Positions 4,389-59,210 of a stretch of DNA of 64,000 nt are shown here, in pieces. The notes beneath the pieces are model-generated. The model searched no databases. It was not told the origin of the DNA and saw nothing but the letters and a program-made list of their open reading frames with translations. The stretch is taken from contig NZ_BCQV01000009.1 in NCBI RefSeq assembly GCF_001552255.1, forward strand, positions 1 to 64,000. Reading direction: 5' to 3'. This stretch comes from Alicyclobacillus shizuokensis NBRC 103103 (GTDB lineage: Bacteria > Bacillota > Bacilli > Alicyclobacillales > Alicyclobacillaceae). Position 1 is the first letter of the stretch, and each line of letters starts with the position of its first letter. Position numbers and translations under genes: made by a program.

Positions 4389-5621
4389 TTGCGGTTGCGC
4401 AAACAGCTGATGGTCTCCCTGAGTGGCGCTTTGGTGGCCGTGTCCGCGTTGGTTCCGCAGGTGAAGGCGGACAGTCTGAGCGATAAGCAGCAGCGGCTCA
4501 ACAAATTGCAGTCTCAGGCAGACCAGGTGTCCAGCGAAATCGCCCGCCAGCGGGCCAAGGCGAATGCGATTCAAAGCAAGATCGATGATTATCAGGCGCA
4601 TATCGATTCGATGAATCAACAGATTGAAGCGAGCCAGCGCCAGGTCGATGAAATCCGCAGCAAGATAGATCGACTCATGGATCAGATGGCGCAGAATCAG
4701 AAACAGTTGACGGAAGATAAGCGAAAGTTGCGGGAGATGCTTCGAGCAGCCTATGAGTATGGTCAGGTGCCCTACCTGGAGGTCCTCTTCAAGGCTACTT
4801 CGTGGGATGATCTCTTGACGCGGTTGCAGGCGCTTTCTCAGGTCTCTCGCAGCGAGAAGCAACTGGCCGACCGAGTGGCGGCGTTGCAGGTGCAGCTGCG
4901 GGAGCAGCAGCGTGATCAGGAAGCATCCTTTCGGCAGCTGAAAACCAAGGTCCAGCGGTTGCAGGAATTGCGGGATCAGAATCTCGCTCTGCAAAGTGAA
5001 CAAAAGCAAGCGCTGTCCATAGTCAGCCGCGGCTTGGACCTGCAAGAACTGCGCCGCGTCCAGTTGCAGAATCAGATTGGCATGACGCAAGACGAAATCC
5101 AGGAACTGAAACAGGAAGCGCAGCGGTCTGCGGCTCAGGCATCCGCCGCATCCGCATCGGCATCTACATCCACATCCACGAACAGTGGGAGTTCCGCGAG
5201 TGGTGGGTCGTCCCAGACGCCAGCGCCAGCCAGCACAACGCTGCGGTCGGGAAATGGGAGCGACATCGCTACATATGCCGCGTCGTTCGTTGGTCATCCA
5301 TATGTCTGGGGCGCTGCGGGTCCAAATTCCTTCGATTGCTCCGGACTGGTCATGTACGTGTACAACCGATTCGGTATCAGCCTGCCACACTCGTCGTATG
5401 CCCAATTTGGCATGGGAACGCCGGTCGCCAAGTCCGACTTGCAGGCAGGCGATTTAGTATTCTTCAGCACCGACGGTGGCGGGGCGTCCCATGTGGGCAT
5501 CTATCTTGGCAACGGTGAAATGGTGAGCGCGCAATCGCAGCGCAGCGGTGTGAAAGAGGCGTACATCTTCTCTGGATATTGGGCCAACTCTTACATAGGT
5601 GCCCGGCGTATCGTCCAGTGA
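4389..5621 (+). CDS. Secreted NlpC/P60 peptidoglycan endopeptidase with coiled-coil domain
   Basis: Predicted cell-wall DL-endopeptidase. A signal peptide (VSLSGALVAVSALVPQVKA) is followed by about 240 residues of heptad-rich coiled coil, as in PcsB/CwlO-type hydrolases, a Ser/Ala/Thr linker, and a C-terminal NlpC/P60 domain. Catalytic Cys lies in NSFDCSGLVMYVY (about residue 317) and His in GASHVGIYLGNG (about 368). Start is TTG 4389, nine bases after GGGG; an upstream TTG at 4368 is less likely. The coiled coil usually keeps such enzymes inactive until a membrane partner (FtsEX type) engages; no such partner is in this window. Transcribed alone. Confidence 0.9.
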   Translation: MRLRKQLMVSLSGALVAVSALVPQVKADSLSDKQQRLNKLQSQADQVSSEIARQRAKANAIQSKIDDYQAHIDSMNQQIEASQRQVDEIRSKIDRLMDQMAQNQKQLTEDKRKLREMLRAAYEYGQVPYLEVLFKATSWDDLLTRLQALSQVSRSEKQLADRVAALQVQLREQQRDQEASFRQLKTKVQRLQELRDQNLALQSEQKQALSIVSRGLDLQELRRVQLQNQIGMTQDEIQELKQEAQRSAAQASAASASASTSTSTNSGSSASGGSSQTPAPASTTLRSGNGSDIATYAASFVGHPYVWGAAGPNSFDCSGLVMYVYNRFGISLPHSSYAQFGMGTPVAKSDLQAGDLVFFSTDGGGASHVGIYLGNGEMVSAQSQRSGVKEAYIFSGYWANSYIGARRIVQ

Positions 5622-8300: not shown

Positions 8301-9290
8301 ATGCCGACTGTCTACGTCACTCGGCGCTTGCCCGACGATGTGATGAAACGTCTGCAGGCGTCTGTCCACGTCTCATTTTACCCGAATGACGCCGAGCCGG
8401 TTCCACGCACTCGGCTGTTGGCAGATGTGGCGGGCGCCGACGGCATCCTCAGCATGCTGACCGACCGGGTGGACGCCGAGGTGATGGATGCGGCGGGACC
8501 TCAGCTGCGGGTCATCGCCAACTTGGCTGTCGGGTATGACAACATCGATGTGGGGGAGGCTGAACGGCGTGGTATTGTGGTCACCAATACGCCCGATGTG
8601 CTGACGGAGACCACCGCCGACCTGACTTTCGCCCTGATGATGGCGGCCGCCCGCCAGCTGTCGAGCGCCGAGCGGAGCCTGCGCGCCGGGCAGTGGCGAG
8701 CGTGGAGCCTGCTCTCTTACACCGGAGTCGATGTGTACGGCAAGTGTCTCGGTATTGTCGGCATGGGACGCATCGGGGAAGCGCTGGCCCGGCGCGCCGC
8801 CGGGTTTGGCATGCGCATCCTGTATTTCAACCGTCATCGCCGCCCAGAGGTGGAACAGGCTTCGGGGGCGACCTTCTGTTCGTTTGACGAGCTGCTGGCC
8901 ACGGCCGATTTTGTGGTCGCGCTGGCGCCGCTGACAGCCGAGACACGTGGCATGTTCAACCGGCGCGCCTTTGGCTTGATGAAGCGAACAGCCGTGTTTG
9001 TCAACACTGCCCGCGGTCCCATTGTCGATGAGGAGGCGCTCGTGGAAGCGCTGAGGGAACGGCAAATCTTCGCCGCCGGACTCGACGTCTATGCCGAGGA
9101 GCCTTTGCCGCCCGAGCACCCTCTGCTGCAGTTGGACAACGTGGTGCTGCTGCCGCACATCGGGTCCGCCAGCGTCGAGACAAGGCTCGCTATGGCCCGC
9201 CTGGCGGTGGACAACATTTTGGCGGTGCTGGGCGGGCAAGCCCCGCTGACGCCGGTCGTGGGCCCGACCAGCGGGATCCCACACGCCTGA
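8301..9290 (+). CDS. D-2-hydroxyacid dehydrogenase (glyoxylate/hydroxypyruvate reductase-like)
   Basis: NAD(P)-dependent D-isomer 2-hydroxyacid dehydrogenase. The Rossmann motif GIVGMGRIGEALARR (about residues 151-165) and catalytic residues Arg in NTARGPIVDEEAL, Glu in DVYAEEPLPPEHPL and His in LPHIGSASVETR are all present. The overall pattern (NLAVGYDNIDVGEAERRG, LTETTADLTFALMMAAARQL) fits glyoxylate or hydroxypyruvate reductase (GyaR/GHRB) rather than 3-phosphoglycerate dehydrogenase, since there is no ACT domain. Start ATG 8301 follows AAGGAG by 10 bases. Convergent with iadA, separated by a shared palindromic terminator. Confidence 0.9.
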   Translation: MPTVYVTRRLPDDVMKRLQASVHVSFYPNDAEPVPRTRLLADVAGADGILSMLTDRVDAEVMDAAGPQLRVIANLAVGYDNIDVGEAERRGIVVTNTPDVLTETTADLTFALMMAAARQLSSAERSLRAGQWRAWSLLSYTGVDVYGKCLGIVGMGRIGEALARRAAGFGMRILYFNRHRRPEVEQASGATFCSFDELLATADFVVALAPLTAETRGMFNRRAFGLMKRTAVFVNTARGPIVDEEALVEALRERQIFAAGLDVYAEEPLPPEHPLLQLDNVVLLPHIGSASVETRLAMARLAVDNILAVLGGQAPLTPVVGPTSGIPHA

Positions 9291-52630: not shown

Positions 52631-52694
52631 GAACATGTGTTTGTTTTCGCTGCGGGTGCGGGTATAATAGACCTCACAAACAGAACATATGTTC
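52631..52694 (+). promoter_or_regulatory. SOS-type promoter with two LexA/DinR boxes
   Basis: TATAAT (52663-52668) with a TTGTTT -35 (52641-52646, 16-base spacer). GAACATATGTTC (52683-52694) is a perfect Bacillus-type LexA/DinR box (GAAC-N4-GTTC) just downstream of the expected start. GAACATGTGTTT (52631-52642) is a one-mismatch box over the -35. The two are 52 bases apart centre to centre. Confidence 0.8.
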
Positions 52695-52712
52695 CCATCG
52701 GGAGGTACCCAG

Positions 52713-54014
52713 ATGCGATACACACTGTTTGGCCTGGGGGAAGGGGTGCGCATCGATGAAGGTCCTCGCCTGTGGGCCTCCGTCGAGCGAGGTCGAGTCA
52801 GCGACGCGTCGGCTGCTGCCCGTAAACAAGGGCTTCGGCCGGGAACGCCGACAGCCACCGCCAAGGCGCTGGTGCCTGGACTGGCGCTGTACGAAGAACC
52901 TGCTTCACCCTCGCGGATGATGGAGCAGGTCTGGAGCACCCTGTGGGGCTATACCCCGTGGTTGGAGACTGTAGGGAAAGATTCTTTTTTTATCCAAGTA
53001 CCAGGCTCTGTCCCTCCTTTGCAGGAAATCCGAGAGATTATGCAACAATTGGACACGAATTTGCCAGAAGGATCTCGCTTTTGCATGGGGTTGGCGGAGA
53101 CTCCAAAATTGGCTCGGGCGTTGGTGCAGTGGGCGGCGAGTAGAAGGCGGGAGATGCCAAGGATAAGCCGCACGATGGGCCGGCAGCGTTTATGGATTTC
53201 TCCCGGACTTACGGGGCGGCGGAAAATCTCCTCGGAGCGGGACGGAATTCGGCATGCAGACAGTGGCGATAGGCCCGCAGCGGTTCATCCTCCCGCTGCG
53301 GCGCCGGGGTGGATTCTCGCCTTGCCGGTCGATGCCGTATGGTTTCTTTCCAGCGATGTACAAGCGAAATTGAAGGAGTTCGGCGTGTTTCGCTTGGCTG
53401 ATCTGGTGGCTCTTCCCGACGCGGATATCATGCGTTGGTTTGGACGAGAGTCGCTGCTGTGGAAGCAGGCGTTTGCCGAGGTGCCTCCCGGACAAATTCA
53501 GGTCAATTATCCGCCCGCAATCTATTCTGAAGAATGGGAATCTCGTGTTGGAGAAACCATGCCTGCGGAGTACATTCCCAAGCTAGTGGAGGCGCTGATG
53601 GCAGCGGTCGTAGATCGCCTGCAGAAGGCGGGGCGCACCGCCCTGCGGGCAGGGATGGTTTGGAAGTCTACATCCAGCGAGGGACGGTTTGCACAGGCGG
53701 CTGGGCGGCCGCTGCATCGCCTGTCGTCGTGGCTGGCGCATCTGCAGGAAGGCGTTCGGCGGTGCCGGGAGGAGGCGGCGCGGGCCGGTGGGATTGCATA
53801 CGTGGAGGTCTACGCGGCCGATTTGCAGCCGCTTCGCGTTCGTCAGTCCAGGTTTACCGTGAAAAACGGCTTGCTGATTCCAGATAGATGGGAAGCAGGG
53901 CGGAAGATAGAGCACATCATGACGCAGATCAACGGCCGGTTTCCAGACAAACTGCGCATCGGGGTGCGCGGAAGCCTCCGGGAATTACGCTGGCGGATGG
54001 TGGCGGAGGCGTGA
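52713..54014 (+). CDS. imuB: ImuB-like catalytically inactive Y-family polymerase
   Basis: 433-residue protein with Y-family architecture. SDASAAARKQGLRPGTPTATAKALVPGL corresponds to the fingers region (ARxxGVRxGMPxxEAxxLCP), and ADLVALPDADIMRWFGRE to the thumb's helix-hairpin-helix. The metal-binding residues of active enzymes are missing: no Asp in the first strand (RYTLFGLGEG) and no SxDE motif (TVGKDSFFIQV instead). ImuB proteins share this loss and act as adaptors bringing DnaE2 to the clamp. ATG 52713 has GGGAGG seven bases upstream, 18 bases beyond a LexA box. No ImuA gene precedes it. Confidence 0.75.
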   Translation: MRYTLFGLGEGVRIDEGPRLWASVERGRVSDASAAARKQGLRPGTPTATAKALVPGLALYEEPASPSRMMEQVWSTLWGYTPWLETVGKDSFFIQVPGSVPPLQEIREIMQQLDTNLPEGSRFCMGLAETPKLARALVQWAASRRREMPRISRTMGRQRLWISPGLTGRRKISSERDGIRHADSGDRPAAVHPPAAAPGWILALPVDAVWFLSSDVQAKLKEFGVFRLADLVALPDADIMRWFGRESLLWKQAFAEVPPGQIQVNYPPAIYSEEWESRVGETMPAEYIPKLVEALMAAVVDRLQKAGRTALRAGMVWKSTSSEGRFAQAAGRPLHRLSSWLAHLQEGVRRCREEAARAGGIAYVEVYAADLQPLRVRQSRFTVKNGLLIPDRWEAGRKIEHIMTQINGRFPDKLRIGVRGSLRELRWRMVAEA

Positions 54015-54253
54015 CGCGGATTGTCCGGCGTCCTATTCAGATTGAATCATGGTGTGCGCATGTGCCGCAGCAGTTTCGCGATAAGGGAACTCTGCACCGG
54101 GTGGCCGATTGGCTCGATGTATGGAGGGAAATGGGGAATTGGTGGGAGGGGGAGGGAGAACGGTGGATGATTCGGGTGATGACCGTGGATGGCCAAATCT
54201 TTGATCTGGAGTCGTCGGATGGACAATGGTGGCTGTATAAGGTGTGGGATTAG
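54011..54253 (+). CDS. Small DUF6504-like protein coupled to imuB
   Basis: 80 residues from GTG 54011, overlapping the imuB stop by four bases (GTGA). The pattern PIQIESWCAHVPQQFRDKGT, DVWREMGNWWEGEGERWMIR and SSDGQWWLYKVWD resembles DUF6504, a domain found beside ImuB/DnaE2 in Actinobacteria (short beta-rich, G-x-WW motif, ending in xWxLxxVYD). The next gene begins 11 bases after its stop. A structural or regulatory role in the mutasome is inference. Confidence 0.7.
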   Translation: MTRIVRRPIQIESWCAHVPQQFRDKGTLHRVADWLDVWREMGNWWEGEGERWMIRVMTVDGQIFDLESSDGQWWLYKVWD

Positions 54254-54264
54254 GGGGATGCCGG

Positions 54265-57200
54265 GTGTTTGTACACCTTCACTGCCATTCTTCGTTTTCC
54301 TTTCAGGACGGCGCGTCCACGATTGAATCCTTGGTGGCGCAGGCGGCCGCCGAAAACATGCCGGCAATGGCATTGACAGACCACAATACGATTGCCGGCC
54401 TGCCCGAGTTTCATCACTGGGCGTCCGTATATGGGATTCAGCCGATTTCGGGGGCGGAGTTGACGCTGGAGGATGGGACGCACCTGACCGTGCTCGCGGA
54501 AACCCCTTTGGGTTACGAAAACCTCTGCCGATTGTTGACCCTCGCTCACGAGGGCCGTCGGCGGCAGCCGGCTTTGCCGGAGCAGGAGCTGTTCCGGCAC
54601 GGTCAAGGACTGATTGTGCTGTCCGGATGCCGCCGCGGCCGCATTCCCCAACTGGTTCTACAGCACCGGGCATCCGAGGCTAAAGAGACCGCCAGGCGCT
54701 ATCATGATCAATTTCCAGGGGCGTTTTATTTGGAACTGCAGGGAGACGAATATCCTCGGACCCACTGGCTGAATCGGCAATTGGCAGACCTTGGGAAGGA
54801 TCTGGATATTCCTTTGGTGGCCAGCAGCAATGTCCATCACGCCACGCCTGAACAATTTCCTGTTTACGACATCTTATCCTGTATTCGTATGGGGATCGCC
54901 GTTCATGATCCGTCGGGGGAGCGGCCGCTCAATCCCAATCGTTGGCTGCATGATGCGGCGGAAGCAAGGCGGCGATTCTCGGCGTATCCGCAAGCGTTGG
55001 AGAACACAATGCGGATTGCAGAACGCTGCCAAGTGGTCGTGAAGCTGAACCAGTCCCTGTTTCCAGCCTATCGGCTGCCCCGTGGTGAGACCAGCGCTGC
55101 CGCCTATCTGCGCAGGTTGGTTTGGCGCGGGGCGCGTGAGCGGTATCCGCATGTGGACGGGGAGCTGCGGGCCAGGCTGGATCATGAATTGACCATCATT
55201 GAACGCTTGGGTTATGTGGATTATTTCCTCGTGGTATGGGATATTGCCAACTTCGCGAGAAGTCGCCGCATCCGCTACGCTGGGCGGGGGTCCGCGGCAG
55301 ATTCGGCCGTAGCCTATTGCCTGTACATTACCGACGTCGATGCGGCGGGGCGAGGATTGTTGTTTGAACGGTTTTTGAGTCTGGAACGGGCAGAGAAACC
55401 GGACATTGATATCGACTTTGACAGTCGGCGCCGGGATGAAGTGATGGAGTATGTGTACCGGACGTATGGAGAGCAGCATGTGGCGCGGGTGGCGACGTAT
55501 CAAACGTTTCGGGGCAAATCGGCCATCCGCGCGGTGGGAGCTGCGCTCGCCCTGCCCGAGGATCTGGTGGATCAGCTGGCCAAGCGGATTCCTTGGGGAA
55601 CACGGGCGGATCGACTGGAAGAGGTGTTGCAGCGGGTGCCAGAACTCAGGCCATATCGGGCGCATCAGCGGCAATTCGCCTGGCTGTGGCGATTGGCCGC
55701 TAGCATAGCCGGCTTTCCTCGCCACTTTGGTTTACACCTGGGGGGTGTGGTCATCAGCAGCCGTCCTTTGTTTGCAGTGACTTCGCTGCAGCCGTCTGCC
55801 AAAGGAGAGCGAATGATTCCGTTCGATAAGGAGGCGGCGGAGATGGTGGGCTTGGTCAAGCTGGACTTATTGTCGCTGCGCACGATGTCCGCGATTGACG
55901 ATGCCATCGGATTGCGGGAGAGTCAACAGATGGCCTTGGATTACGAAGCCATACCGCTGGATGACCAGGCGACGTTCCGCAGGCTGGGGCGGGGAGAGAC
56001 GGTCGGTGTTTTTCAGTTGGAGAGCCCCGCACAGCGCGCGCTGCAAACCCGTCTGCAACCGGATCGCTTGGAAGATATTGTGGCCAGTGTCGCTCTGATT
56101 CGACCCGGCCCTATCAAGGGCAATATGGTTGATCCGTTTTTGCGCCGGCGCAAAGGGCTTGAACCGGTTTCCTATTTGCATCCAAAATTAGAACCCATTC
56201 TTGGCAAGACCTATGGGGTGGTGCTGTTTCAAGAACAAGTGATTGAGATTGCCACAGCGATTGCCGAATTCACGCCCGGCGAAGCTGACCAGTTGCGGAG
56301 GGTGATGAGCCATGCCCGCTCCACAGCAGAGATGGAGAGGATAGGCGAGCAATTCCTCGCCAAGGCGGCGCAAGCGGGGGTGGAGGAGGAGGTGGCCAAA
56401 ACCATCTTCTCATATATCCAGGGATATGCCAGTTATGGATTTTGTGAGGCGCACGCTGCAGCTTTTGCCACCACCGCGTATAAGACGGCGTATTTGCTGG
56501 AGCATTACCCGGCCGAATTTTATGCGGCCGTCTTGAATCAGTACCCGATGGGGTACTACCCGATTCACGTGATTGTGGCAGAGGCCAGACGGCGAGGGAT
56601 CTCTGTGCTGGGTGTGGACATCAATGCCAGTGAGTGGTCCTGCCGTGTCACCGATGGGCAAATTCGCTTGGGGTTTCGTTTGCTGAAGGGAAGTCAAGAG
56701 ACGCTGATTCGCACTCTGGTGGACGAGCGCCGGGCTCATGGACCCTATCGTTCGGTCTGCGACGTGCTTTGCCGTGTCCCGCAGCTGGACACCCTGTTAG
56801 CTCAGCACCTGATTCGGGTGGGAGCGTTCGATGCTTTGGACTCCCGACGGCGGCACTTGCTGTGGCGGCTGCCGGAATGGCTGCGTCTGCGCCACGCCCG
56901 GCATGCGAGACTGCCCCTGTTGCCGGATGCGCTGATGAGGGACGGCGAGGGCGGGCGGACGCGTCGGGACGATGGACCCGGGGATTTGCCTTTTGCCGTA
57001 AAGTTGGCGGATGAGTACAGTCTGTTGGGGGTGGGCCTTTCCGGACACTGGCTGGAACTGTATCGCCCTTTTTTGACCAAGAACGGTTACGTACCCATTC
57101 AAAATTTGGATTCTGCTGAGGATGGAGAAGAAGTGTGGGTGGCCGGTTTGGTGGTCTGTCCCCATCGGCCGCCTACCAAGAGCGGGCGTACGGTTGTCTT

Positions 57201-57390
57201 TTTTTCACTGGAGGACGAAAGTGGCATCGTCGACGCGACGATGTTTGAGTCGGTGTATCGGCGAAGCGGCGCTGTCGTATTTACTCCCCAAGGTCGCATT
57301 GTCGGGGTGCGCGGGCGTATTCAGCGCCGGTGCGGTGCCCGTCCCAGTCTGATAGCATGGGAGGTTTTGCCGCTTCATACAGGCCTGTAA
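54265..57390 (+). CDS. dnaE2: Error-prone DNA polymerase III alpha subunit, DnaE2-like
   Basis: 1041-residue C-family polymerase. The PHP domain (VHLHCHSSFSFQDGAST, ALTDHNTIAGLPEF) is at the N-terminus, and the palm carries GRGSAADSAVAYCLYIT and the catalytic triad region KPDIDIDFDSRRRDEVMEYV. GVFQLESPAQRALQ, VALIRPGPIKGNMV and FTPGEADQLRRVMSHARS follow, with a C-terminal OB fold (VWVAGLVVCPHRPPTKSG). Length and the SPAQR wording match DnaE2/ImuC, not DnaE1 or PolC. GTG 54265 has AGGGGG seven bases upstream. Last gene of the SOS cassette; translesion synthesis with ImuB is expected. Confidence 0.93.
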   Translation: MFVHLHCHSSFSFQDGASTIESLVAQAAAENMPAMALTDHNTIAGLPEFHHWASVYGIQPISGAELTLEDGTHLTVLAETPLGYENLCRLLTLAHEGRRRQPALPEQELFRHGQGLIVLSGCRRGRIPQLVLQHRASEAKETARRYHDQFPGAFYLELQGDEYPRTHWLNRQLADLGKDLDIPLVASSNVHHATPEQFPVYDILSCIRMGIAVHDPSGERPLNPNRWLHDAAEARRRFSAYPQALENTMRIAERCQVVVKLNQSLFPAYRLPRGETSAAAYLRRLVWRGARERYPHVDGELRARLDHELTIIERLGYVDYFLVVWDIANFARSRRIRYAGRGSAADSAVAYCLYITDVDAAGRGLLFERFLSLERAEKPDIDIDFDSRRRDEVMEYVYRTYGEQHVARVATYQTFRGKSAIRAVGAALALPEDLVDQLAKRIPWGTRADRLEEVLQRVPELRPYRAHQRQFAWLWRLAASIAGFPRHFGLHLGGVVISSRPLFAVTSLQPSAKGERMIPFDKEAAEMVGLVKLDLLSLRTMSAIDDAIGLRESQQMALDYEAIPLDDQATFRRLGRGETVGVFQLESPAQRALQTRLQPDRLEDIVASVALIRPGPIKGNMVDPFLRRRKGLEPVSYLHPKLEPILGKTYGVVLFQEQVIEIATAIAEFTPGEADQLRRVMSHARSTAEMERIGEQFLAKAAQAGVEEEVAKTIFSYIQGYASYGFCEAHAAAFATTAYKTAYLLEHYPAEFYAAVLNQYPMGYYPIHVIVAEARRRGISVLGVDINASEWSCRVTDGQIRLGFRLLKGSQETLIRTLVDERRAHGPYRSVCDVLCRVPQLDTLLAQHLIRVGAFDALDSRRRHLLWRLPEWLRLRHARHARLPLLPDALMRDGEGGRTRRDDGPGDLPFAVKLADEYSLLGVGLSGHWLELYRPFLTKNGYVPIQNLDSAEDGEEVWVAGLVVCPHRPPTKSGRTVVFFSLEDESGIVDATMFESVYRRSGAVVFTPQGRIVGVRGRIQRRCGARPSLIAWEVLPLHTGL

Positions 57391-57598: not shown

Positions 57599-58675
57599 AT
57601 GCATCTGTCTACTGTAACCCGGTTTTCCTGGCTGCGCTTGCCTGTATTGGCCGCCGCCCTCGCTGTGACCATGGGGCTTCTGCCGGCTTGCGGGAAGACC
57701 ACGTTGGCTGCAGACAACGGTCGTTTTCCCGCGCCGGTCGAGGAAGGCGGGGCGACGCTCGACTGGGGGCAAGACGTCAAGACGCAGGCCCTGCGGATGA
57801 TTCGCCACAGCCACCGTTACTGCTATCTTGACGTGTATGAGTTGTCGGACCCGGATATCCTCAAGGCTCTTGTCGCGGCGAAACAACGCCAGGTGGATGT
57901 GCGGGTGGTCGTCGATGCGACAGAAAGCCATTCGCAGCAAGACGCTGTCCCCATGCTGGAGCACGCAGGGGTTCCCGTACAATCTCTGCACATTCATCAG
58001 GGCATTTCGCACATCAAGATGCTGCTGGCGGATGGCGGCGATTCCGGGGTGTTGCTGGGCGGAATGAACTTCGGGGACAGCAGCTGGGAAAACAATGATG
58101 CGTCCGTTTACATCCGGCATCCCAATCCGTCGTTTCTCGCTTTGTTCCATTGGGACTGGAAACGCGCACAGGGTCTGCCCGCCGCAGCACCCAAGACTCA
58201 ACCGCCCCTCGTCACCGACGGGCAGATTGAGACACAGGTCATCCAAGCGATTCAATCGGCTCACCAACTGGTGTGCTTAGAAGCGTTTGACCTGACGGAT
58301 CGTGACGTCCTCAACGCCCTCATCGAGGCCGTCAACCGTGGGATCATCGTGGAGGTGTTGCTGGACCCCAATCAACCCTACAATCGCAAAGCCGCCGAGG
58401 AGCTGCGCGACGCAGGGGCGACCGTTCGCTTCTATCGACCCTACGGCGAAGAGTGGATGCACGCCAAGATACTCGATGTGGATCATGGAACTACCTTCAT
58501 CATCGGGAGTGCCAATTTCAGCCACCAAGCGTATACCTACAACCATGAGGGTGATTTGGAATTTCACCATATGAAGCGGTTCGACGCCTCTTTCCAAGCC
58601 AATTTTTCAATTCAAATCTCACGCGGCACCGACTATCCGGTGGCCAGCGCTCGGTCCGATGAGGGTGGAGACTGA
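57599..58675 (+). CDS. Phospholipase D-like lipoprotein
   Basis: 358-residue exported protein with two HKD active sites. Signal peptide and lipobox LPAC near residue 30. First motif SHIKMLLADGGDSGVLLGG, second WMHAKILDVDHGTTFIIGSA; both have His-x-Lys-x4-Asp. Two such half-sites form one active centre for phosphodiester hydrolysis or transfer. GGGAGG lies eight bases before ATG. Followed after four bases by a PAP2-type phosphatase gene. The product could act on phospholipid or extracellular DNA; not resolvable. No cardiolipin-synthase transmembrane helices. Confidence 0.9.
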   Translation: MHLSTVTRFSWLRLPVLAAALAVTMGLLPACGKTTLAADNGRFPAPVEEGGATLDWGQDVKTQALRMIRHSHRYCYLDVYELSDPDILKALVAAKQRQVDVRVVVDATESHSQQDAVPMLEHAGVPVQSLHIHQGISHIKMLLADGGDSGVLLGGMNFGDSSWENNDASVYIRHPNPSFLALFHWDWKRAQGLPAAAPKTQPPLVTDGQIETQVIQAIQSAHQLVCLEAFDLTDRDVLNALIEAVNRGIIVEVLLDPNQPYNRKAAEELRDAGATVRFYRPYGEEWMHAKILDVDHGTTFIIGSANFSHQAYTYNHEGDLEFHHMKRFDASFQANFSIQISRGTDYPVASARSDEGGD

Positions 58676-58679
58676 ATCG

Positions 58680-59210
58680 ATGACGTTCGAACGTGTGCAG
58701 CCCTATGATGAGCGATGGGTGATGTATGTATGCGGTTTGTGGCGGCGATGGCCTACACTCAATGCCTGTATGATGGTCATTGCGCGCTGGACACCGATTG
58801 TCATGGTCTGCGTCATCGCTGCGGCCGCCTTGTCCCAGACATCGTCTGCGACGCGCCTGGCCGGGTTTTCGGCGATAGCAGCCGCCGTCTTGGCGCGTGC
58901 CATCAACGAATTGGTGACCCGAGTGTTTCGGCGTCCGCGCCCGTTTGAGCGACTGTCGTTTCTGCCGTTGCTTGCGCATGAACGCGGCGGCTCCTTTCCC
59001 AGCAACCATGCCACGGGCGCCTTCGCCTTGGCGGTGAGTATGACGGGCGTGCCTGGGGTGGGGCTCATCCTGTTCGTACTGGCCGTGCTCCTGGCCATAT
59101 CGCGCGTGTACGTAGGACTGCACTATCCCACGGATGTTCTGGCCGGGGTTCTGCACGGGACCTTTGTGGCGGTCGTGGTTTCCACTGCTGTGAGCGTATG
59201 GCTGGCGTAA
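58680..59210 (+). CDS. PAP2-type undecaprenyl-diphosphatase, BcrC-like
   Basis: 176-residue membrane protein with about five hydrophobic segments. Phosphatase motifs RPRPFERL, GGSFPSNHATGAFALA (catalytic His) and SRVYVGLHYPTDVLAG (second His and Asp) are in BcrC order and wording. BcrC-type enzymes recycle the undecaprenyl carrier for cell-wall synthesis and give bacitracin resistance. The Lys that usually precedes motif 1 by seven positions is Thr. GGTGGAG lies nine bases before ATG 58680. Co-transcribed with the preceding lipoprotein. Confidence 0.88.
   Translation: MTFERVQPYDERWVMYVCGLWRRWPTLNACMMVIARWTPIVMVCVIAAAALSQTSSATRLAGFSAIAAAVLARAINELVTRVFRRPRPFERLSFLPLLAHERGGSFPSNHATGAFALAVSMTGVPGVGLILFVLAVLLAISRVYVGLHYPTDVLAGVLHGTFVAVVVSTAVSVWLA

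Follow-up and report, generated by a model that had tools for sequence, protein, structure and literature searches.

A LexA-boxed cassette of a predicted inactive Y-family polymerase homologue, a standalone ImuB-C protein and a DnaE2X polymerase in Alicyclobacillus shizuokensis

Alicyclobacillus is a spore-forming, acid-loving bacterium, and the 64,000-nucleotide stretch analysed here (the window; positions 1 to 64,000 of contig NZ_BCQV01000009.1 of Alicyclobacillus shizuokensis NBRC 103103) carries a cassette of three genes behind a promoter with two LexA boxes (Table 1). The cassette encodes an inactive Y-family polymerase homologue (iPolY), a small protein of the DUF6504 family and a C-family DNA polymerase. 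It is very probably an error-prone polymerase operon (mutasome) under LexA control, of the type that combines DnaE2X, an inactive PolY and a standalone ImuB-C. Six features that can be read from the sequence carry this assignment, namely the gene order, the loss of a Y-family catalytic acid, the single curated family that covers both DUF6504 and ImuB-C, the phylogenetic placement of the polymerase, the failure to detect ImuA and a conserved two-box promoter.

The initial annotation described three genes joined by a 4-base overlap and an 11-base gap, and the coordinates confirm this arrangement: genes 1 and 2 share GTGA (54011-54014), and 11 bases (54254-54264) separate gene 2 from the GTG start codon of gene 3 at 54265. 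The machine-listed open reading frame of gene 1 opens at ATG 52689, within the proximal LexA box; the start is taken here as ATG 52713, downstream of GGGAGG.

Protein 1 matches the Pfam IMS family with 31.7 bits. An alignment of 30 iPolY rows, the window's own included, was compared with the PolY of the same genome, which retains the catalytic Glu and the neighbouring Asp. In all 30 rows the Glu column is free of acid and holds Ser, Ala, Gly, Val or Thr, which bears out the loss of a catalytic acid. The column of the N-terminal catalytic Asp is Arg or Lys in 30/30 rows, in a region where the alignment is loose. A point on the other side is that the neighbouring Asp is retained in 13 of the 30 rows, including the window's protein, and the designation as dead therefore leans on the lost Glu together with the lost N-terminal Asp. 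Protein 1 has a disrupted Y-family active site and is predicted to be inactive. A Gln occupies, in 30/30 rows, the place where PolY carries the clamp motif QLRLF, so that QSRF in the window's protein may bind the sliding clamp. Closer to the C-terminus lies a family motif with the consensus QVNRKFPxxLxxGxRPxFREL, whose likeness to the N-terminus of RecA is no more than suggestive. Two results weigh against this likeness: among 31,668 background windows, 83 equal or exceed the score of the RecA N-terminus itself, and another RecA window outscores that N-terminus for the iPolY motif. PolY has a motif at the corresponding position that gives a better score against the RecA N-terminus (5/31,668). 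A further point on the negative side is the AlphaFold model of iPolY, built from a two-sequence alignment, which is useless (pLDDT 33).

Protein 2 matches PF20114 (DUF6504) with 26.0 bits, above the cut-off of 24.2. The same model matches residues 430-508 of Novacetimonas hansenii ImuB with 33.3 bits; that gene is annotated as a 'DUF6504 family protein', with a gene for an error-prone DNA polymerase on one side and one for a 'damage-inducible protein' on the other. Because one Pfam family covers both gene 2 and the C-terminus of an ImuB, DUF6504 is, by sequence, the ImuB-C domain of PMC3765255, here encoded by a separate gene. Gene 1 is thus not a whole ImuB, as its C-terminal domain sits in gene 2, and the DUF6504-like protein initially put forward as a possible third part is the missing piece of ImuB instead of a new component. 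Residues W38, E40, G42, W44 and W45 are invariant in an alignment of 21 DUF6504 proteins, and Pseudomonas psychrotolerans ImuB has a comparable C-terminal sequence, GWWDGEDAR, with a profile comparison probability of only 6.4%. Other comparisons count against the identification. Two other ImuB proteins gave no DUF6504 report in Pfam, single-protein profile comparisons were low (39.7% for the N. hansenii protein, <1% for two others), and the AlphaFold model of ImuB-C, also from a two-sequence alignment, was moderate (69), with nothing matching it in the PDB at an E-value of 0.001 or lower. A phage or plasmid origin of DUF6504 was considered and rejected: phages gave no match at E 0.01, none was confirmed on viral contigs, and two plasmid records were found. 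The term DUF6504 was not found in the literature searched. The identification ties a Pfam family still named for its unknown function to ImuB-C in a testable way.

Protein 3 contains PHP, alpha, finger, HhH and OB domains in Pfam and carries the polymerase motifs PDIDIDF and KLDLLSL. Its lineage was examined in a quick tree of 31 polymerase rows (LG+G4, SH-aLRT support only), in which the labels 2X, 2A and main were taken from gene context, 2A denoting rows whose neighbours are annotated as ImuA, ImuB or both, together with related rows. The window's polymerase falls within a ten-row clade of DUF6504-linked polymerases (support 100), and its nearest set holds four rows, including that of Kyrpidia tusciae (G078; support 99). 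This clade sits beside one of DnaE2A rows plus Thermomicrobium (100), while the main DnaE1 and DnaE3 rows form the opposite side of the tree (100). The DnaE2-side polymerase of the initial annotation is therefore upheld, and the grouping with DnaE1 named there as refuting does not appear among the 31 rows. Weighing against this placement, 13 of the 31 rows have odd letter composition, and the best NCBIfam model, 'error-prone DNA polymerase', reaches 875 bits where its cut-off is 939, closely followed by a DnaE1-type model with 862 bits. A separate arrangement was seen on a megaplasmid of Thermomicrobium roseum (L052, 2703-8168), where a RecA-like gene, a Y-family homologue and DnaE2 are consecutive; the polymerase of this locus is basal to the DnaE2A rows in the same tree.

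The initial annotation framed the cassette as a classical ImuA-ImuB-DnaE2 system merely minus ImuA. The enzyme families are the same, the boxes are of LexA type and an inactivated Y-family protein precedes a DnaE2-side polymerase, as that account would have it, yet ImuB-C is encoded separately and the polymerase lies outside the clade of ImuA/ImuB rows (100 vs 100), which makes simple loss of ImuA quite unlikely. A search of the genome with the RecA-family model PF00154 likewise returned nothing ImuA-like. It picked up recA and, on contig C7, a second RecA, besides a weak stretch (E 1.3e-4) in an open reading frame that is RadA by eye, and three short weak ones. Since a known ImuA, that of P. 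psychrotolerans, scores 22.8 bits with this model, a similar protein should have shown, although a more diverged one could escape. The lack of ImuA claimed at the outset thus agrees with the genome-wide PF00154 search. The second RecA (C7:131542-132777) was rejected as the missing ImuA; its neighbour is an SSB-like gene, the contig has a phage-like appearance by eye, and nothing links this RecA to the cassette. The genome holds four C-family polymerase genes, namely PolC, DnaE, a third DnaE on C7 and the window's gene. The first DnaE lies in an accD-accA-pfkA-pyk neighbourhood (neighbourhood and gene names assigned by eye), the usual setting of DnaE in Bacilli. Two genes pass the Pfam IMS cut-off, iPolY and one PolY, the latter with an intact active site and a LexA box 73 bases upstream.

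The cassette is widespread among relatives. Both iPolY and DUF6504 occur in 38 of 81 genomes searched, and within the window's family 34/41 searched genomes have the cassette. The iPolY search alone matched 39/81; G074, with one weak match (E 3.8e-4) and no DUF6504, was dropped, and G046, which has DUF6504 and DnaE2X but no iPolY match, was left out of the 38. DUF6504 by itself was found in 105 of 398 genomes drawn from the phylum. The rarity suggested earlier does not hold, given this distribution in the family and the published system of K. tusciae. In Alicyclobacillus kakegawensis NBRC 103104, genes 1 and 3 are 83% and 95% identical to those of the window. Loci outside the window's genome were read for the 29 best-scoring cases. 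DUF6504 stands between iPolY and DnaE in 29/30 loci, the window's own included; at one locus, L041, the best DnaE piece starts about 640 bases further on. A DnaE2X-type match lies close by on the same strand in 28 of the 29, and in L093 it covers only 63 bases at the locus edge. The counterexample is G024 (L191), whose cassette lacks DUF6504 between iPolY and DnaE2X; a copy elsewhere in that genome (C33) may substitute for it.

The promoter of the cassette provides a further conserved element. A TATAAT between two boxes upstream of gene 1, as first reported, is confirmed, and a TTGTTT hexamer at the distal box can serve as the -35 element; a general promoter scan missed it because only 3/6 of its bases match TTGACA. 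A single GAACN4GTTC site is at chance level (2 in the window vs 1.05 expected), as is the CGAACN4GTTCG form in the window, and single-box window statistics were not used as proof. The box pair, unlike the single box, exceeds chance: GAACN4GTTT-N30..41-GAACN4GTTC occurs once in the whole 3.63-Mb genome and 53 times in the 81 genomes, vs 3 for a reversed-pattern control. Box starts are 42-53 bases apart in 28/30 loci; one of the two exceptions, G039, was read from mid-gene, and its pair is present in the genome-wide scan. The spacing scan of these loci and the 81-genome pair scan both required GTTT and cannot test a preference at the distal end, for which one mismatch anywhere was permitted; the distal box then ended in GTTT in 28/28 pair-bearing loci. 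TATAAT or TATACT is found at 51 of the 53 two-box sites, 16-18 bases past a hexamer that starts within the end of the box; in 49 of those 51 its first bases are TTG. The GTTT end would be accounted for by the distal box supplying the -35 element. The second box, initially read as carrying one mismatch, is present as described, but the mismatch is not a defect, because the LexA consensus for Gram-positive bacteria is quoted as CGAACRNRYGTTYC (PMC2248561).

The 53 sites comprise 36 before iPolY (coordinates compared by eye), 14 others that were read and 3 remaining ones, which are a pair upstream in G008 and two without a -10 element. The pair precedes the cassette in 36 of the 38 cassette-bearing genomes. 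Two genomes stand against this pattern: the G008 cassette has the proximal box only, its full pair lying 6.3 kb upstream on the same strand with other genes intervening, and K. tusciae has a single degenerate box, AAACATACGTTT. The genome of the window contains lexA, and lexA, polY and the cassette operon all carry LexA boxes; the LexA-type control proposed initially is supported by the boxes at the promoter. Thirteen of the 14 other sites, all in neighbouring genomes, have a PolY match, while the fourteenth, in G049, shows only a small leading gene. A small first gene of 72-108 residues occurs at 11/14 of these sites and a YolD-like last open reading frame at 9/14 (by eye). At L166, the only set run through Pfam, PolY matched IMS with 103 bits and the last gene matched YolD with 41.6 bits. 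The leading protein of that locus (L166, 1281-1535; 84 residues) had no Pfam match, and genes similar by eye were seen at ten other sites.

Several boxes per promoter are not new, since Firmicutes promoters are reported to carry one to three LexA motifs (PMC2248561). The least-described part of the system looks to be the conserved two-operator promoter itself, in which the -35 element would come from the distal box and the proximal box lies after the -10; in the available literature on Alicyclobacillus, LexA and the SOS response, no paper about this two-box promoter was found. A tentative proposal, held at somewhat less than even odds, is that in this order of Bacilli it acts as a gate reserved for mutagenesis and set to a high threshold, with the same architecture kept before DnaE2X-iPolY-ImuB-C and unrelated PolY-YolD operons. 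Such a gate would let mutagenic synthesis open only once damage outlasts accurate repair, and the layout may explain how two kinds of mutagenic polymerase are kept tightly closed in these acidophiles.

For the operon as a whole, we infer a single mRNA, complex formation, RecA as a partner, induction by damage and mutagenesis. In undamaged cells, LexA would occupy both boxes around the promoter, the distal one covering the -35 element and the proximal one just behind the -10, and so keep the operon off. After damage, RecA filaments would trigger LexA self-cleavage, and three proteins would arise from the one mRNA. The inactive Y-family protein would act as a scaffold, probably contacting the sliding clamp via its Q-x-x-F motif and RecA through the C-terminal RecA-NT-like motif. 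The ImuB-C protein would link this scaffold to the PHP side of DnaE2X, as an in-trans version of the ImuB C-terminal domain, and DnaE2X would synthesise DNA past the lesion at the cost of mutations. This division of labour is modelled on PMC6511836 and PMC12926913, in whose models ImuB-C and the Y-family thumb hold DnaE2 and RecA replaces ImuA. The cassette points to a group of cultivable Bacilli suited to examining the proposed substitution of RecA for ImuA.

The same induction could instead serve accurate repair, with DnaE2X as a back-up gap-filling polymerase that proofreads through its PHP domain and an operon that is not mutagenic. The PHP domain (134.6 bits, HLHCHS motif) would suit that role, and the genome's own LexA-boxed, intact PolY could do the translesion work; even so, this account is judged improbable. 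DnaE2 systems studied genetically are, as far as is known, mutagenic, which argues against it. Such a role is reported for mycobacteria (PMC10421592), and the inactivated Y-family partner also points to translesion synthesis.

The neighbourhood downstream of the cassette is conserved as well. A PLD-family lipoprotein gene and a PAP2 gene were considered as further parts of the system and set aside as conserved neighbours, PLD being present in 58/81 genomes, 20 of which are outside the 38 with the cassette. This setting bears on whether the cassette arrived recently as chance cargo of a mobile island. A second DUF6504 gene and DnaE, RecA, SSB-like and SRAP genes on C7, phage-like by eye, would fit such an origin, but the PLD gene follows the cassette in most loci examined and the cassette itself is present in most family genomes, so that inheritance is favoured and recent acquisition appears extremely unlikely.

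Table 1. Features of the cassette and its surroundings (positions in the window)
Feature	Position	Strand	Basis or remark
Distal LexA box GAACATGTGTTT	52631..52642	+	right end overlaps the -35 element
-35 element TTGTTT	52641..52646	+	16 bases upstream of -10
-10 element TATAAT	52663..52668	+	between both boxes
Proximal LexA box GAACATATGTTC, perfect	52683..52694	+	directly after -10
Gene 1, predicted inactive Y-family polymerase homologue (iPolY), 433 residues	52713..54014	+	Pfam IMS, alignment
Clamp-binding-like motif QSRF, residues 378-381	53844..53855	+	Q at the QLRLF place of active PolY
RecA-NT-like motif KIEHIMTQINGRFPDKLRIG, residues 398-417	53904..53963	+	family conservation
Gene 2, DUF6504, standalone ImuB-C domain protein by Pfam match, 80 residues	54011..54253	+	PF20114
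Gene 3, DnaE2X-clade C-family DNA polymerase, 1041 residues; PHP, polymerase, HhH and OB domains	54265..57390	+	Pfam, tree
PLD-family lipoprotein gene	57599-58675		follows cassette in 21/24 loci
PAP2 gene	58659-59210		follows cassette in 20/24 loci

Related genes were also seen elsewhere. Contig C7, phage-like by eye, carries genes for a 1172-residue DnaE, a RecA, an SSB-like protein, SRAP (Pfam) and a second DUF6504 (80029-83547, 89974, 90231-90893, 93734-93976 and 131542-132777; L009, L139, L059, L061), with a LexA box 257 bases upstream of the SRAP gene and a uracil-DNA-glycosylase-like gene (by eye) near the second DUF6504. On another contig (C22:5-16; L145), a perfect LexA box stands 76 bases upstream of a radical-SAM gene that weakly resembles spore photoproduct lyase (18.8 bits, below cut-off). 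In relatives, at least five orphan ImuB-C genes lie directly behind a LexA box (L062, L071, L073, L074 and L077). The orphan in L069 overlaps a SRAP-like gene (by eye) by four bases, and those in L063 and L069 are near ligase-like genes (by eye). Coordinates are 4988-5239 for L062, 9038-9966 for L069 and 8448-8894 for L071.

Four known systems invite comparison. Standalone ImuB-C genes found together with SRAP, ligase or photolyase genes (PMC3765255) share the small domain and, in several relatives, nearby LexA boxes; they differ from the cassette in mostly having no adjacent polymerase in the stretches read, the exceptions being L071, with PolY about 3 kb away, and C7, with DnaE about 10 kb away. 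The same two-box promoter leads PolY-YolD operons in neighbouring genomes. The YqjW/UvrX-type PolY with YolD is the Gram-positive counterpart of Pol V. In these operons, which differ from the cassette, SVDE is kept in PolY, YolD stands in for ImuB-C and DnaE2 is lacking; this type of PolY appears in PMC6511836. No PolY-YolD operon was seen in the window's genome, in which polY and iPolY are the only genes above the IMS cut-off. The ImuA-ImuB-DnaE2 mutasome of M. tuberculosis, P. aeruginosa and Caulobacter likewise combines an inactivated Y-family scaffold, ImuB-C, a DnaE2-type polymerase and LexA-type control, whereas the window has no detected ImuA, an ImuB split over two genes and a polymerase outside the clade of ImuA-bearing rows (DnaE2A). 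The closest counterpart is the K. tusciae operon described in 2019 as an inactive PolY, a standalone ImuB-C and DnaE2 (PMC6511836). This type was classified in 2026 under the name DnaE2-iPolY-ImuBC-RecA and found with all three replication systems (PMC12926913). Alicyclobacillus DnaE2 was noted in 2012, and PMC3274465 mentions dnaE2 of A. acidocaldarius. Genomes that combine PolC, DnaE3 and DnaE2 have been counted as three, which a footnote implies to be K. tusciae, A. acidocaldarius and Sulfobacillus (PMC3919608). The cassette is of the K. tusciae (DnaE2X) type, and it is neither the first for Bacillota nor a true ImuA-ImuB-DnaE2 cassette. Over the part that matches, the window's iPolY and its K. 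tusciae counterpart share only about 25% identity, and two full LexA boxes contrast with one degenerate box there, but the two agree in gene content and order, in lacking ImuA, in the inactivated Y-family protein and standalone ImuB-C, and in the grouping of their polymerases in the tree.

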